DNA of 20,343 nt from Methanobacteriota archaeon (GTDB taxonomy: Archaea; Hydrothermarchaeota; Hydrothermarchaeia; Hydrothermarchaeales; JACRDW01): the NCBI GenBank assembly GCA_016212785.1, contig JACRDW010000125.1, positions 1 to 20,343 on the forward strand, read 5' to 3'. The notes beneath the pieces were generated by a model. It did not search any database. It was not told where the DNA came from and was given only the letters and a program-made list of their open reading frames with translations. Shown here piece by piece: positions 2,696 through 8,591 of the stretch (position 1 is the first letter of the stretch; each line of letters starts with the position of its first letter). A program made the translations under genes and the position numbers.

Positions 2696-4147
2696 TTACT
2701 CAACCCCCAGCTCCTTCCACATTCTCCAGATGCGCTCCTTAACTTCTTCGCTCATTTTTATTTCATCCGGCCACTCCCTTTCGAAGCCTTCTTCCTTCCA
2801 TTTTTTCGTTGCGTCGATGCCCATCTTTGAGCCGAGATTTGGCAGAGGAGCAGCGTGGTCGAGCGTATCGGCAGGCGCAGCGTCCACAAAAAAGATGTCC
2901 CTCTTCGGGTCGATTCGGTTAGAAACAGCCCATATTACTTCACTGATGTTTTGCACGTTTACATTTTCATCAACGACGATAATCGTTTTAGTAAACATCA
3001 TCTGCCCCATGCCCCAGAGAGCGAACATGACTTTTTTCGCATGCCCGGGATACTGCTTCTTTATCGACACTATTGCAAGGTTGTGAAATACGCCTTCGAT
3101 TGGAAGATTTATGTCAGCGATTTCGGGCAGCTGCATTTTGATGAGCGGCAAAAAGATGCGCTCGATCGCCTTGCCGATATAAGAGTCCTCCATCGGCGGC
3201 TTGCCCACAACTGTAGCAGGATAAATCGGATTCTTTCTGTGCGTTATGCAGGTGACGTGAAATACAGGATACAAGTCTGCGAGGGAGTAGTAGCCCGTGT
3301 GGTCGCCAAAGGGTCCTTCGATGCGGCGCTCTTCTGGATTTACGTATCCTTCCAGAACTATCTCTGCATTTGCAGGCACTTCTAAATTGACTGTCTCGCA
3401 CTTCACGAGCTCTACCGGCTTCTTTCGCAGAAAGCCTGCAAACAGCATTTCGTCGAAGCCTTCTGGCAGCGGTGCAGTAGCCGAGAATATGGTCGCAGGG
3501 TCGCCTCCAAGCGCAACCGCAACCTCAAGAGGCTCGCTTCTTTCTTCAGCCCTGCGGTAGTGTTTTGCTCCATGCTTGTGCACGTGCCAGTGCATTCCAG
3601 TAGTCGCCCTGTCATAAACCTGCATCCGATACATGCCGCAGTTGCGCTCCTCTGTTTCAGGGTCTTTTGTGAAAACGAGAGGCAGAGTTATGAAGCGCCC
3701 TGCATCTCCAGGCCAGCACTTCGGTATGGGAAATTTGTTTAAATCAACTTCTCCGCCCTTGAGAATAACTTCCTTGCATGGAGCGTTTTTAACGATTTTT
3801 GGAGGAAACGACAGGACTTCCTTCAACTTTACTGCGCTTTTTATCTTGCCTATCAAAGAAGAAGGAATCTCCGGCTTCAACAGCCTGACCAGACCTTCTC
3901 CTATGCCTTCAAGATTTTCTGTCTCTAATGCAAGCTTCATTCTCTCCACAGAGCCGAAGAGATTTGCAGCTATGGGTATGTTATAACCTTTCACATTTTC
4001 AAAAAGCAGGGCGGGTCCTTCTTTCTTTACAATGCTGTCTAAAATTTGAGTAATCTCGAGTTCTGGAGCAACCTCTGCCTTAATTCTTCGCAGCAGTTTT
4101 TTGCTCTCAAGCACCTCAATAAAATCTCTCAAATCTGAATACGTCAT
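2696..4147 (-). CDS. UbiD-family prenylated-FMN decarboxylase (MqnL-like)
   Basis: 483 residues, full UbiD length. UbiD enzymes decarboxylate aromatic or unsaturated acids using prenyl-FMN made by UbiX. UbiX is not in the window. Seen: NCGMYRMQVYDRATTGMHWH (the YRMQ Arg of the cofactor/active site), HVHKHGAKHY, VLEGYV then EGPFGDHTGYY (active-site Glu pair), and the C-terminal DHAAPLPNLGSKMGIDATKKW. The ATG at 4147 was chosen because it overlaps the upstream dtxR stop as ATGA and has GGAG 10 nt upstream. An in-frame ATG at 4156 would sit one base from that GGAG. The C-terminal block resembles menaquinone/ubiquinone UbiD. An alternative role is anhydromevalonate phosphate decarboxylase of archaeal isoprenoid synthesis, but those are usually shorter. 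Family sure, substrate inferred. Confidence 0.9.
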   Translation of the reverse strand: MTYSDLRDFIEVLESKKLLRRIKAEVAPELEITQILDSIVKKEGPALLFENVKGYNIPIAANLFGSVERMKLALETENLEGIGEGLVRLLKPEIPSSLIGKIKSAVKLKEVLSFPPKIVKNAPCKEVILKGGEVDLNKFPIPKCWPGDAGRFITLPLVFTKDPETEERNCGMYRMQVYDRATTGMHWHVHKHGAKHYRRAEERSEPLEVAVALGGDPATIFSATAPLPEGFDEMLFAGFLRKKPVELVKCETVNLEVPANAEIVLEGYVNPEERRIEGPFGDHTGYYSLADLYPVFHVTCITHRKNPIYPATVVGKPPMEDSYIGKAIERIFLPLIKMQLPEIADINLPIEGVFHNLAIVSIKKQYPGHAKKVMFALWGMGQMMFTKTIIVVDENVNVQNISEVIWAVSNRIDPKRDIFFVDAAPADTLDHAAPLPNLGSKMGIDATKKWKEEGFEREWPDEIKMSEEVKERIWRMWKELGVE

Positions 4148-4566
4148 TTGCAGCATTCTCCACTTGGAATTTTATTTCCGTGCGGGCACTTTTCTGGATG
4201 ATTCAGGGCAGTGCAGACGGCATCTGCTATTTCCTTAGATATGTGATGCTCCAGACCGCATGCGTTGTCGTGCACGCTTTTGTCCAGCTTCATGTTCAGT
4301 ATGTCTGTAAGCAGCAACTCGGCTAATCTGTGGTTTCGTACGACCTGCCTTGCTACACTTCTTCCTTTCTTTGTAAGATTAACTCCTACCCTCGTCTCGT
4401 ATTCAACTAACCCCATTTCTTCCATTTTTTTAAGCATTTCAACAGCGCTCGGAGGAGCTATTTTAAGGCTTTCGGCTATCTCATTTATCTTCGCTATACT
4501 CTTTCCTCTCTCTTCAAATATCCAGAGAAGTTCTAAATATTCTTCAATGTTCTCAGTTACCCTCAT
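4144..4566 (-). CDS. DtxR-family iron-dependent repressor (short form)
   Basis: 140 residues. A winged helix-turn-helix (about 8-70) with EIAESLKIAPPSAVEMLKKM as the HTH is followed by the metal-binding dimerisation domain. NHRLAE gives His79 and Glu83, and CGLEHH gives Cys103, Glu106 and His107. The Cys-x-x-Glu-His form matches iron-type DtxR/IdeR rather than MntR, which has Glu there. It ends with CPHGNKIPSGECC and has no SH3/FeoA domain. The ATG overlaps the stop of the preceding DtxR-FeoA gene (ATGA), and its own stop overlaps the ubiD start. It probably senses Fe(II) and may bind the palindromes before feoB. It is a shortened paralogue of its upstream neighbour, with about 40% identity judged by eye. 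Confidence 0.9.
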   Translation of the reverse strand: MRVTENIEEYLELLWIFEERGKSIAKINEIAESLKIAPPSAVEMLKKMEEMGLVEYETRVGVNLTKKGRSVARQVVRNHRLAELLLTDILNMKLDKSVHDNACGLEHHISKEIADAVCTALNHPEKCPHGNKIPSGECCK

Positions 4567-5213
4567 TTTGTTACCTTTCTCACATAAATCTCTCTCGCTA
4601 TTTCTTCATCGATGGCAAGCTCGGTCTCGCCTATTTTTATAACAAACGAGGGGCGCTTTTGGTGCAGCTTAATCGTGCTTCCCGGAATTACACCCAGCGA
4701 GCTCAGCCGGTCTAACCTCGTGTGCTCCTTAGGTACTATGAAAACAATTCTCCCCCCTTCTCCAGGTTCTAACTCCATCAGGGGCATTACCAATGGCTTA
4801 ATATCTCTCTTAAATTTTGTACAGCACTCACCTCTGGGTATAAGTTTGCCGTGAGGACACAGCGGAGGGTGCCCTAAAAAAGCGCATACGCTGTCAGTTA
4901 CTTCGGAACTGAGCAGATGCTCGAATTTGCAAGCCTGCGGCTCGAAGTGCTCCTCTTCAATCTCAAATACTCCGGAGAGCAACCTTTCCGCAAGGCGGTG
5001 GCGGCGAATTATCTCTCCAGCTTTCTTGTCCCCTTCTTTGTTTAGAGAGATTCTATTTTCATAAGTGGATATCAAACCCTGCTTTTCCATTTCTGCGAGA
5101 ACTTTCTCCGCATCCTTCTCTCTCGCTGCTGCAAGGATTTGCTCTACGTTGCTCTTGCCTTCCTCCCTGAGAGTCCAGATGACCTCCAATAATTCATCGA
5201 TCTGCTCTTTCAT
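4563..5213 (-). CDS. DtxR-FeoA fusion, metal-dependent regulator
   Basis: 216 residues. DtxR-like winged-helix (about 1-65) and metal domain (RHRLAE with His72 and Glu76; CKFEH with Cys95, Glu98 and His99; CPHGKLIPRGECC) are followed by a FeoA/SH3-like beta domain (about 143-216: LEPGEGGRIVFIV, LSSLGVIPGSTIKL, ending IYVRKVTK). The start is decided by GGAGG five bases before the ATG at 5213. Upstream in-frame ATG (5225) and GTG (5243) have no such site and would overlap the zinc-ribbon gene more. From 5213 the N-terminus also lines up with its paralogue. The helix-turn-helix looks weaker than in the paralogue. It lies between a zinc-ribbon gene and a second dtxR. It may regulate the operon or modulate FeoB through its FeoA part; no separate feoA is visible. 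Confidence 0.88.
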   Translation of the reverse strand: MKEQIDELLEVIWTLREEGKSNVEQILAAAREKDAEKVLAEMEKQGLISTYENRISLNKEGDKKAGEIIRRHRLAERLLSGVFEIEEEHFEPQACKFEHLLSSEVTDSVCAFLGHPPLCPHGKLIPRGECCTKFKRDIKPLVMPLMELEPGEGGRIVFIVPKEHTRLDRLSSLGVIPGSTIKLHQKRPSFVIKIGETELAIDEEIAREIYVRKVTK

Positions 5214-5406
5214 TTTTTCCTCCATTTGAGTATCTTCTTTCACGTCTAAAAATTCTTTGCAGAAAATTTAAAATCGTCGATTCTTCCACAAATTGATAGT
5301 TGCAGTTTGGGCAGCAGATTATCTTGCATTCGCCCATGACTAGAGGGCACTTCTTGCACTTCATTTCTTCCCTGCGAAACTCATAGCCGCACAGCGGACA
5401 CTTCAT
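5194..5406 (-). CDS. small Cys-rich (zinc-ribbon) protein of the feo operon
   Basis: 70 residues with eight cysteines: C3 and C6 (CPLCGYEF), C17 and C20 (CKKCPL), C27, C31, C32 and C35 (CPNCNYQF). This gives two zinc-ribbon or Fe-S knuckles followed by a basic helical tail (LQRIFRRERRY). Such proteins are found next to feoB and DtxR genes in anaerobes and archaea; their biochemical role is not established. The ATG overlaps the feoB stop (ATGA), and its 3' end overlaps the start of the DtxR-FeoA gene by 20 nt, so the three should be translationally coupled. It may act as an iron-sensing or FeoC-like accessory; that is inference. Confidence 0.85.
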   Translation of the reverse strand: MKCPLCGYEFRREEMKCKKCPLVMGECKIICCPNCNYQFVEESTILNFLQRIFRRERRYSNGGKNERADR

Positions 5407-7367
5407 AGCACTACCTCAAAATATCTTAGCAGGAAGTTTAAGATTCCTCCCACCAGAAAGGCGAATGGAAATATGAATGCTGCTATTGCAAGTGCGGTTT
5501 TCAGCCCTCTTTCCTTGACCATCATGAAAAAGTTGGCTATGCAAGGTACAAATAAAGTAATCGTAACCAGGCTGACCACAATTTGAGTTGGATCCAGCAG
5601 GCCTTTCTCTGCGAGCACGAAGAGACCTGCAGCGCCGTAATCTCTGCGCAGAAATCCGACGATAAAGGCTTCGGTAGCTTTCGCAGGCAGCCCCAAAAAG
5701 CTGACCACCACAGGGCTTGCCGCAATTTCGATTATTTTTAGAAGTCCTATTCTGTCAAATACGAAGAGTAAGAAAGTACCTAAAATAAAGAGAGGCACGG
5801 CTTCCTTTACATACCACTCTACTCTTGCGAGAGTTTTGACAGCTATGTTTGAGGCCTTCGGTATGCGCAGTGGAGGAATCTCAAGAATGAAGTCAGAGGG
5901 CTCTCCGGGTATTACCTTCGAGGCGAGGTAGCCGACGAGCAGCATTACCAGAATTACCATGCCTGCCCAGATGTACGCCGCTTTGGCTGAGAGCGTACTG
6001 AGCATTCCCAGAATTACTCCAAGCTGAGCAGAGCAGGGTACTGCAAGGGCTAGAAGGAGAGTGACGATAATTCTATCTTTTTTCGTCTCCAGTATTCTCG
6101 CAGTCATCGTAGCCATCGTATCGCATCCCAGTCCGAGAACCATGGGCAGCACTGCCTTTCCATTTAAACCAATCGACTTAAAAGCTCTGTTGCTCATTAT
6201 CGCAAGCCTCGGCAGGTAGCCGGTGTCCTCGAGAAAGCCGAAGAAGATGAAAAAAGTGCCGACGATTGGAAGAACTATCGCAAGCGCATAAGTTAAAGCT
6301 GTAGTAATTAATCCGTACTCTCCTACCAGCAGTTCCTGAAGCAGCTTTATCGGAATCGTTCCAGCAAGCCTTATTGCAAAGGGATTTAAATATTTCCCAA
6401 AAATCGTGTTTTCAAAAAAGTCAACAAGCGTGCCCGCGCCAAACTCTCCAACGAACTTGTACATGAGATACAAAACGAACAAAAGAACAGGCAGCCCCCA
6501 GAATGGATGCATTGTTAGATTTCCAAGTTTTTCGGTGACGGTGCCCTTAGAAACTTCCTCTGCCCTTAATACCTGCTTCAGAATCTCTTCCGCAGCTCTC
6601 AGTCTCTGCTGGGTTATTACATAACCCATGGATTCATTATATTTAGAGCGTACTTCGTTGATTATTTTCTCAATTTCAGCAAGAATTTTTTCATCTATCC
6701 TCTCCAAGAGCCATCCCCTCAAGCTTGCGTCGCCAGCGAGCAGCATTAAAGCAAGACTTCTCTTAGATATCGCAGCGCTCGGCAGAAATCCTTCGAGCTT
6801 TCCTATAGCGGCTTCTATGGTTTCGTCATAGCTCATTCTGTAAGTGGAAAGCCTGGGTTCAGAAAGACTTCGTATAAGTTGCTCCAAACCGTATTTCTGT
6901 ACCGCAACAGTCGGAACTGCTTCGACTCCAAGAATTTGAGAAAGTTTCCCAGCATTAATAGATATTCTGCGCTCCCTCGACTCGTCAATCATGTTCAGGT
7001 CTAAAACAAAGGGAAGCCGCATTTCAGCCAGCTGGAGCGAAATCAGTAAAGCTCTTCTTAGGTTTTTTGCATCCGCAATCTGGAGCACGAGCTCGACTTT
7101 TTCATTGAGAAGTATGTCTCTGGTAACCCTTTCATCCTCGCTCATCGGAACGAGATTATTTATGCCCGGAGTGTCTATGAGCTCATACTTATTTTTATTG
7201 AGCGTTCTTATCGCCCTGACAACTTCTACCGTAGTGCCTGGATAGTTTGATACAGTTGCATAGCGCCCGCTGAGCAGACCGAATACCACGCTCTTGCCCA
7301 CGTTTGGATTACCTATGACTGCGATTTTCGGCAGATTTGAAGCTGTTCCTGTATAATGCCCGTGCAT
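5403..7367 (-). CDS. feoB: FeoB ferrous iron transporter
   Basis: 654 residues, normal for the family. FeoB imports Fe(II) through a membrane channel gated by an N-terminal G-protein domain. Seen: G1 GNPNVGKS (19-26), YPGTT switch region (42-46), G3 DTPG (65-68), G4 NMID (125-128). A helical GDI-like region follows, then HPFWGLPVLLFVLYLMYKF, which opens the membrane part. Other membrane signatures are GLGCDTMATMTARILETKKD, AVPCSAQLGV and FVPCIANFFMM, the two gate motifs with paired-Cys positions. It is the first gene of the feoB / zinc-ribbon / dtxR-feoA / dtxR / ubiD operon. Two DtxR-type palindromes lie just upstream, so iron repression is likely. GGTATACC, 25 bp before the ATG, could be the TATA box, which would make the mRNA leaderless. 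No free FeoA is present. Confidence 0.97.
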   Translation of the reverse strand: MHGHYTGTASNLPKIAVIGNPNVGKSVVFGLLSGRYATVSNYPGTTVEVVRAIRTLNKNKYELIDTPGINNLVPMSEDERVTRDILLNEKVELVLQIADAKNLRRALLISLQLAEMRLPFVLDLNMIDESRERRISINAGKLSQILGVEAVPTVAVQKYGLEQLIRSLSEPRLSTYRMSYDETIEAAIGKLEGFLPSAAISKRSLALMLLAGDASLRGWLLERIDEKILAEIEKIINEVRSKYNESMGYVITQQRLRAAEEILKQVLRAEEVSKGTVTEKLGNLTMHPFWGLPVLLFVLYLMYKFVGEFGAGTLVDFFENTIFGKYLNPFAIRLAGTIPIKLLQELLVGEYGLITTALTYALAIVLPIVGTFFIFFGFLEDTGYLPRLAIMSNRAFKSIGLNGKAVLPMVLGLGCDTMATMTARILETKKDRIIVTLLLALAVPCSAQLGVILGMLSTLSAKAAYIWAGMVILVMLLVGYLASKVIPGEPSDFILEIPPLRIPKASNIAVKTLARVEWYVKEAVPLFILGTFLLFVFDRIGLLKIIEIAASPVVVSFLGLPAKATEAFIVGFLRRDYGAAGLFVLAEKGLLDPTQIVVSLVTITLFVPCIANFFMMVKERGLKTALAIAAFIFPFAFLVGGILNFLLRYFEVVL

Positions 7368-7384
7368 TTCAATGCCCCATACAA

Positions 7385-7412
7385 TTAGGTATACCTAATT
7401 AGGTTAACCTAA
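7385..7412. promoter_or_regulatory. two abutting DtxR-type operators before feoB
   Basis: TTAGGTATACCTAA (7385-7398) and TTAGGTTAACCTAA (7399-7412) are each perfect 14-bp palindromes of the form TTAGG-4-CCTAA, side by side with no gap. The half-site TTAGG/CCTAA is that of known DtxR/IdeR boxes. They cover the likely TATA region of feoB, and the second overlaps the last codons of the MFS gene. Two dtxR genes lie in the operon they would control, so feedback is expected. Confidence 0.85.
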
Positions 7413-8591
7413 CTTCTGCAAAAATATCAGCAAAACCGCTGCAAGAAAGGCAAGCACAGCGCCGTACAAAAAAGTTGCGGACGCGCCGAGATACTGCCAC
7501 AGAGCGCCTGCAATCAAGCTCGCAGGCAGCGCTGCAATACCGAGTATGGTATGGAAAATGCCGAATGCGGTGCCCCTCGCCTCAGCCGGCACAAGGTCTG
7601 CGACATATGCTTTCTGAATTCCTTCCATGAAAGCATAGTAAATGCCGTAGAGTGCGAAGAAAAGCAGGACATGTGGCATAGTTTTTGCAAGCATAAAACC
7701 TGTGCAGGTGAAACCGAAAAGTGCGTACCCAAGAGCAATCGTATGCTTCCTTTGGATTCTGTCGGAGAGCATTCCTGCGGGCATTGCAAAGGTTGCGTAT
7801 ATCACACTGAAAAGCAGGTAGAAGATGATAATCTTCTGCTCCGGTATTCCAATCTCCTTTGCCTTCCACATAAGAAAAACATAGCTGAAGTTTGCCAGAC
7901 CGAAGATCGTCGCTATCAGCAGGAAAATCTTGAATTCTCTGCTCAGCGCTTTGAAGGTAAGCCTGAACGAAATCGCTTTTGGCTCTTTTCTTATTTCTCT
8001 GACGAAAAAAATTATCAGGAGTACTGAAAGGAAAGCAGGAATTGCAGCAATCAGGAAAATCCGCCTATAGCTGAAATAAGCTACCAGAGAAAATGCAACA
8101 GCAATTCCGAGTACTGCACCGCTCGTGTCCATCGCCCTGTGAAAACCAAAGGACTTTCCATAAAATTCTGCATCTGTTGAATCCGCTATGAGCGCATCCC
8201 TCGGAGAAGTTCTCAGACCTTTGCCGACCCTGTCTACAAATCTCACAGCAAGCACTTGAAGCCATGTTGCAGCAAGTGCAAAGAAAACCTTGGAAGCCGC
8301 ACTCAAACCATAGCCGCCTGTTACGAAAATCTTTCTCCTGCCGACTTTGTCAGAATACCAGCCTGAATAAACCTTCAATAAGCTGGCAGTGCTCTCAGCT
8401 ATTCCCTCTATCAATCCCACGGCCGCAGGCACAATGCCGAGGCTCAAATAGAAGAAGGGCAGCACCGCAAAAATCATTTCAGAACTCACGTCTGCCAGGA
8501 AGCTTGCCGCTCCGAGCACTAGTACCGTGGTGCTCATTCCTTTGAAAATGCCGCTTTGAATTCTGTCCTGCTGATTTTTCAAACTATGCAC
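7404..8591 (-). CDS. MFS transporter, probable efflux permease
   Basis: 395 residues with about 12 hydrophobic segments. MFS motif A is GWYSDKVGRRK (77-87), followed by RFVDRVGKGLRTSPRD (117-132), typical of a group of archaeal and bacterial exporters annotated as drug or unknown-substrate permeases. The motif A copy between helices 8 and 9 is GMLSDRIQRKH. It follows padR and a methyltransferase gene, overlapping the latter by 8 nt if the GTG at 8591 is used. A TTG at 8582 has GGTGA nine bases upstream, and an ATG at 8537 is also possible, so the start is uncertain. Context (PadR control) favours efflux of a toxic or signalling compound. Substrate unknown. The 3' end overlaps the feoB operator. 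Confidence 0.88.
   Translation of the reverse strand: MHSLKNQQDRIQSGIFKGMSTTVLVLGAASFLADVSSEMIFAVLPFFYLSLGIVPAAVGLIEGIAESTASLLKVYSGWYSDKVGRRKIFVTGGYGLSAASKVFFALAATWLQVLAVRFVDRVGKGLRTSPRDALIADSTDAEFYGKSFGFHRAMDTSGAVLGIAVAFSLVAYFSYRRIFLIAAIPAFLSVLLIIFFVREIRKEPKAISFRLTFKALSREFKIFLLIATIFGLANFSYVFLMWKAKEIGIPEQKIIIFYLLFSVIYATFAMPAGMLSDRIQRKHTIALGYALFGFTCTGFMLAKTMPHVLLFFALYGIYYAFMEGIQKAYVADLVPAEARGTAFGIFHTILGIAALPASLIAGALWQYLGASATFLYGAVLAFLAAVLLIFLQKLG

Follow-up and report, generated by a model that had tools for sequence, protein, structure and literature searches.

A conserved pair of abutting DtxR-type half-sites is a predicted iron operator of an archaeal feo operon

RESULTS

A feo operon that encodes two DtxR-type proteins

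The window, i.e., the whole stretch of 20,343 nucleotides analysed here, carries on its minus strand, in this order, padR, a methyltransferase gene, an MFS gene, feoB, a gene for a 70-amino-acid Cys-rich protein, a DtxR-FeoA fusion gene, a gene for a short DtxR and ubiD. The features that concern the regulation of feoB are the following:

7417..7426, minus strand: possible TATA region of feoB, weak (TATTTTTG / TTTTTGCA), placed by analogy with relatives
7399..7412, minus strand: distal DtxR half-site, TTAGGTTAACCTAA; no mismatches; one of the two exact sites of the genome; overlaps the MFS stop codon
7385..7398, minus strand: proximal DtxR half-site, TTAGGTATACCTAA; no mismatches; adjoins the distal site with a 14-bp period; conserved as a pair
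5403..7367, minus strand: feoB, Fe(II) transporter of 654 amino acids; TIGR00437 and FeoB Pfam domains
5194..5406, minus strand: Cys-rich (zinc-ribbon-like) protein of 70 amino acids between feoB and the fusion; conserved position
4563..5243, minus strand: DtxR-FeoA protein with an eroded DNA-recognition segment (conservation, charge); PF02742 and PF04023 without PF01325; structural model keeps the fold
4144..4566, minus strand: short two-domain DtxR, likely the repressor; PF01325 and PF02742; only PF01325 match of the genome; PDB relatives IdeR, DtxR, SloR and DR2539

As an earlier note on this DNA had read it, the operon does encode two such proteins, one of them DtxR-FeoA-like and the other a short DtxR. 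The nearest named relatives of its FeoB are from Candidatus Hydrothermarchaeota (64% identity), and the order feoB, Cys-rich protein, fusion and short DtxR recurs, with variants, in relatives. The feoB of one genome (G044, L127:4159-6100) gave two separate matches, to residues 2-170 and to residues 169-647, as from a split gene or a frameshift. The Cys-rich protein had no Pfam or NCBIfam match; its relatives are encoded directly 3' of feoB in 28 of 78 bacterial FeoB loci.

Two perfect half-sites abut upstream of feoB

The same note had described two perfect, gapless palindromes at 7385-7412. Indeed, both are free of mismatches, their centres are 14 bp apart, and the match claimed to DtxR/IdeR boxes was confirmed in that both 14-mers fit TTAGGNNNNCCTAA with 0 mismatches. 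Seventeen bases separate the pair from the ATG of feoB. The central tetramers of the two sites differ (TATA and TTAA), and they are variable across the 30 distinct sites that we collected. The suggestion that two bound dimers would lie on near-opposite faces of the helix has to be corrected, since 14 bp corresponds to about 120 degrees at 10.5 bp per turn. The pair was also said to cover the 3' end of the MFS gene and the feoB TATA region; the former is true, with the stop codon inside the distal site, but the TATA region is probably located just upstream.

The exact motif TTAGGN4CCTAA occurs in the organism's own genome (G000; 1,114,762 bases; 93% complete) only at these two sites. A single exact site is not rare by itself, with about 1.2 expected from base composition per 1.11 Mb, whereas only about 1.3e-6 abutting 28-mer pairs are expected per genome. 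When up to two mismatches were allowed, the window contained 5 matches, with 8 expected, and therefore only the exact pair stands out. The classical 19-bp IdeR box, made up of four interleaved CCTAA repeats, had 4 mismatches in its best match in the window; therefore, the pair is not such a box.

We also considered a wider regulon in the same genome and rejected it: of 12 sites with one mismatch, 11 were within open reading frames and one (L136) was about 75 bp upstream of such a frame. Judged by eye, these frames included no iron gene, and two were taken for ribosomal protein genes. The single exact site was likewise dropped as a diagnostic, as 46 of 61 genomes have one and a reversed-pattern control gave comparable numbers in many genomes from outside the order. 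Some genomes do exceed the control in exact sites (13 versus 3 in G048, 9 versus 4 in G026 and 5 versus 0 in G039).

The pair and its spacing are conserved

The pair was searched for in 394 genomes with up to two mismatches; the organism's own order was represented by its genome and 19 further ones. In 11 of these 20 genomes the 28-bp pair was found at 14 places, always without a mismatch, whereas outside the order a pair with one mismatch was present in 3 of 374 genomes (G117, G313 and G378). The reversed-pattern control, with up to two mismatches, was positive in 5 of the 394 genomes, none of them in the order. Downstream of the 14 exact pairs were feoB (3 pairs), FTR1 (7 pairs, with PF03239 in 7/7 of the genes) and dtxR (3 pairs), and in one case the contig ended without a visible gene (G014:C20:8704).

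Two sites within 0 to 30 bp of each other were found 29 times in 18 of 61 genomes and not once in 61 genomes with the control. Read by hand from the search output, their centres were 14 bp (14 pairs), 26 bp (5 pairs), 27 bp (5 pairs) and 15, 17, 21, 22 and 23 bp (one pair each) apart. Counted once per family and spacing, 7 of 14 cases, i.e., 7 families, had the 14-bp spacing, which has a P of about 1e-7 if all 31 spacings are taken as equally likely, with the proviso that promoters within the order are related and the pairs thus not independent.

Conservation before feoB, for which the earlier note had asked, was also found: 10 of 12 archaeal promoters with feoB as the first gene, our own included, have a site (≤1 mismatch, ≤300 bp upstream), with 0.22 expected and with some of the 12 being close kin. 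Together with the pairs before FTR1 and dtxR genes, this conservation supports the prediction that the feo operon has operators of the DtxR type. The set of 12 omits six operons in which feoB is not first or the contig ends (L034, L114, L125, L127, L128 and L132), and L162 of G017, a feoB with an exact site, is outside it as well. In three of the six (L034, L114 and L132), FTR1 is the first gene and the pair precedes it; in L125, the contig ends before that point. Six relatives have a single site before feoB (L033, L116, L118, L120, L121 and L122). The two promoters without a site are L123 (G022, 81% complete) and L126 (G020, 95% complete). Neither genome yielded the short DtxR of the operon; G020 had no PF01325 match and G022 had one, another DtxR encoded elsewhere. 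G020 has 2 exact sites elsewhere, versus 2 control matches. In three order genomes the stretch around the short DtxR gene contained no site and no feoB (L129 to L131), and this argues against a simple rule of autoregulation for all genomes with a short DtxR.

Other arrangements of the site were also seen. In a second class of operator, the two sites have a spacing of 26 or 27 bp and enclose an AT-rich stretch that resembles a TATA box (L158, L159, L160 and L178); it precedes FTR1-like genes and, in L178, a gene for a solute-binding protein (PF13343). A third, MntR-like DtxR of some order genomes has a pair directly before its own gene (L189:1117-1494; L178 from 1528), and in L178 the second site of this pair overlaps the start codon. 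In G001 and G011, one exact site immediately precedes the gene of an Nramp transporter (L156:151-1500, with PF01566 in L156; L157). In the distant archaea G313 and G378 (L187 and L188), the pair with one mismatch precedes a feoA gene (PF04023 in L187), and near the start of the next, feoB-like frame there is another exact site.

Probable position of the pair around the start site

Fifteen promoters with a pair (12 exact, 3 with one mismatch) were inspected for a TATA-like 8-mer. Such an 8-mer starts 8 to 20 bp upstream of the pair in 11 of 15, with 2.9 expected from shuffled sequences; an equally long stretch farther away contained one in 3 of 15. Our own promoter is not among the 11; like L178, it reached weak TATA scores only. 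Because a TATA-like box is found just upstream of the pair in most relatives, the pair probably lies over the region of the start site, itself placed by inference, rather than over the TATA box.

The short DtxR is the candidate reader

The short DtxR matched PF01325 with 65.1 bits and PF02742 with 94.2 bits, both above the cut-off. A profile search of its own genome found PF01325 in this protein only and PF02742 in this protein and the fusion; there was no match to PF01475 (Fur). Among 23 genomes of the order and class, 5 had weak PF01475 matches, one of them over the cut-off, and several order genomes contain further PF01325 matches and thus more than one candidate binder of their sites. In the alignment of orthologues (A2; 1 of 19 sequences left out), PF01325 was present in 18/18. 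At the positions that we take, from DtxR and IdeR, to be metal ligands in the short DtxR and the fusion, the ancillary-site His included, the short DtxRs have C103, E106, H107 and E83 in 18/18 and H79 in 17/18; the ancillary-site His (H99) is present in 10/18, and 8 have a gap there. An AlphaFold2 model of the short DtxR (mean pLDDT of 82.6) has a recognition helix of 13 residues. Most likely, judging from these sequence features, the palindromes are read by the short DtxR alone.

The recognition segment of the fusion is eroded

The FeoA domain of the fusion matched PF04023 with 60.2 bits, and the gene is near feoB. Of 90 fusions found, 86 remained after removal of 4 duplicates (alignment A1). 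PF02742 was found in all 86 and PF01325 in 11; our own fusion had no PF01325 match at an E value of ≤0.1. For 13 loci with both proteins (L132, which also has both, was omitted), the mean pairwise identity of the turn and recognition helix is 27.5% in the fusions and 67.4% in the short DtxRs, and that of the metal domain is 65.2% and 61.1%, respectively. Six fusions have a segment that looks intact by eye (L128, L132, L025, L027, L029 and L030). In the other 80, the eroded fusions, the segment has a mean net charge of -1.8 (range, -7 to 3), versus +0.9 (range, -1 to 2) in 18 short DtxRs. The putative ligands are retained in the eroded fusions: C105, E108 and H109 in 79/80 (gap in 1), H82 in 75/80 and E86 in 72/80; at the ancillary position there is Glu in 72/80 and His in 6/80.

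We had considered a loss of the whole helix-turn-helix, but this was rejected, since an AlphaFold2 model of the fusion (mean pLDDT of 92.2) keeps the winged helix; the claim was therefore cut to erosion of the recognition segment. The model has a helix of 10 residues in the recognition position and superimposes on IdeR from a DNA complex with about 2 Å over 126 columns. Loss of DNA binding by the fusion is likely from its sequence but not proven, because the IdeR variants Q43A and P39G still bind (PMC8464063).

In a tree calculated with a quick method from 109 columns, with the recognition segment left out, the eroded state requires one change, and its branch has an SH-aLRT value of 87; the short-DtxR group has 41, and the tree is poorly resolved. 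Eroded fusions of bacteria (L035-L112) and of archaea are intermixed in it, which suggests, as far as sequences can tell, transfer of the feo operon between the domains.

Most of the bacterial feo operons have the fusion, and none has the DtxR site

FeoB relatives with 52 to 63% identity are encoded in bacterial genomes. Of the 78 loci, three with a short upstream stretch (L040, L087 and L091) were left out, and in the remaining 75 regions upstream of feoB no DtxR site was found with ≤1 mismatch (0.48 expected). With looser criteria, 2/75 had a site with ≤2 mismatches and 4/75 the core AGGN4CCT. A Fur-like box, scored with the consensus sequences printed in PMC545781, was present in 34 of the 75 regions (1.4 expected) and in none of the 12 archaeal feoB-first promoters; the other 41 bacterial regions had no recognised box. 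Fur boxes had been predicted before the feoB1-R operons of Geobacter (PMC545781). A full fusion is encoded downstream in 62 regions (75 minus 13 listed by hand), 30 of which have the Fur-like box. No separate short DtxR was found in the fetched flanks (≤6 kb) of the 78 loci, except for a partial DtxR-like match upstream in L073. Since bacterial fusion operons often have Fur-like boxes and none has the DtxR site, the fusion goes with FeoB under different predicted regulators, and the palindromes go with DtxR.

DISCUSSION

What can be read directly from the sequences is the presence of the sites, how they are conserved and spaced, that the genome has one DNA-binding domain of the DtxR type, and that the fusion has an eroded recognition segment. 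Taken with the gene content, these features point to a real and conserved, if predicted, iron operator of known type with an unusual paired geometry. We favour, with a probability of roughly 80%, the reading that metal-loaded short DtxR on both sites of this operator blocks the polymerase and represses its own operon, with the fusion as the FeoA partner. The 28-bp element would then be made of two DtxR/IdeR half-sites, each for a single dimer and one directly following the other, rather than being the interleaved 19-bp box of actinobacteria. With sufficient Fe(II), or another activating metal, the metal-loaded short DtxR would occupy both half-sites around the start site, just downstream of the TATA region, and would keep RNA polymerase from joining TBP/TFB; we infer repression rather than activation. 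Because the repressor gene is part of the operon, this would close a negative feedback loop. The fusion would not be a DNA reader but, most likely, a metal-sensing FeoA partner of FeoB. The weak TATA-like sequence of our own promoter counts against this model, as does the ancillary metal site, which lacks its His in 8 of 18 short DtxRs and has Glu instead in 72 of 80 fusions.

How the two sites and the two proteins work together could be seen differently. One dimer at a time might be bound, with the sites competing and the second only raising the chance of local occupation; the zero gap between the 14-bp sites and the single site before feoB in six relatives would fit, but a spacing of exactly 14 bp recurs in 7 families, and the 19-bp IdeR box accepts two dimers with centres only 5 bp apart (a distance derived here), so that 14 bp need not cause a clash. 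We consider this improbable, and we give the same low weight to heterodimers of the fusion and the short DtxR, in which the fusion would be an anti-repressor or an iron-tuned modulator of the operator. Such heterodimers are conceivable, as the two genes are neighbours and their products share the metal/dimerisation domain and its Cys-Glu-His ligands, and inactive heterodimers are one of two proposals made for a Fur protein without a DNA-binding domain (PMC545781); however, 62 of 75 bacterial operons keep a full fusion, and no separate short DtxR was found in the fetched flanks (≤6 kb) of the 78 bacterial loci, apart from the partial match in L073.

Very unlikely, in our opinion, is the idea of the earlier note that the paralogues differ in the site that they prefer. 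The two proteins do share the metal/dimerisation domain and the two central tetramers do differ, but the tetramers vary among the collected sites anyway, and a fusion that lacks a PF01325 match, whose recognition segment is poorly conserved next to its own metal domain and is acidic on average, and whose 62 bacterial operons, among 75 feoB promoters inspected, have no such site, is a poor candidate for reading either of them; both segments of the short DtxR are well conserved. That the palindromes are a product of chance or the terminator of the MFS gene, as their overlap with its stop codon might indicate, can practically be dismissed, given their conservation before different genes in different families and the minute number of pairs expected per genome. 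We now return to repression by the short DtxR as the preferred reading and compare it with known systems.

In Saccharopolyspora, one IdeR dimer binds one half-site, for which the consensus TTAGGNNNNCCTAA was proposed (PMC8464063). Both 14-mers described here match it, and the distal one, TTAGGTTAACCTAA, is identical to a DNA designed to accommodate a single DtxR dimer, with an apparent Kd of 5.5 nM in the presence of Co2+ (PMC13379313). What differs from the Saccharopolyspora half-site is that two of them abut, with centres 14 bp apart, and that it is the pair which is conserved within an archaeal order. The 19-bp IdeR/DtxR box, TTAGGTTAGSCTAACCTAA, has the CCTAA repeats in common with the pair, but its two dimers sit on interleaved repeats on opposite faces (PMC8464063), whereas the half-sites here are arranged end to end at 14 bp; in repressed genes, the box overlaps the start site and/or the -10 region (PMC10317159).

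Among the nearest solved structures of the short DtxR is DR2539 of Deinococcus, a chain of 148 residues with the same two domains. MDR1 of Archaeoglobus fulgidus is a regulator of the DtxR type. It is metal dependent, binds beside the TATA box and blocks the polymerase, a mechanism seen earlier for MDR1 and then for LrpA, which binds at the downstream border of the TATA box (PMC2995911). DR2539 differs from the short DtxR in that its target is mntH, with Mn(II) and Fe(II) as the metals to which it responds (PMC3327659). PgMntR resembles the fusion, with DtxR domains joined to FeoA domains and a gene in an operon with feoB, but PgMntR binds DNA and its DNA-binding domain can be predicted (PMC4805248), whereas that domain is eroded in the fusion described here.

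In a literature search that covered titles and the beginnings of abstracts, neither an abutting 14-bp pair nor an eroded fusion was described. The work of Leyn and Rodionov from 2015, which reportedly deals with DtxR-family control of metal genes in archaea, was considered through its title and citations, and it is not certain that the abutting pair is new.

The function of single half-sites is left open in two papers (PMC8464063, PMC10317159), and the promoters described here would be cases in which nature uses the single-dimer DtxR half-site pairwise. The recurrent spacings of 14 bp and 26/27 bp define an operator geometry that can be tested on archaeal promoters. The fusion is also a reason not to annotate all DtxR-FeoA proteins encoded beside feoB as repressors, since here the part that reads DNA is eroded and the metal domain is kept. 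This combination suggests, at the level of sequence, that iron controls FeoB also at the protein level. A broader scenario, which we put forward tentatively and hold to be somewhat less probable than even, is that a DtxR repressor turned into a transporter subunit: it would have lost operator reading, apparently once, kept Fe(II) sensing and come to gate FeoB post-translationally in bacteria and archaea, with transcriptional control being exerted separately, by Fur in many of these bacteria and by the short DtxR on abutting half-sites in archaea.
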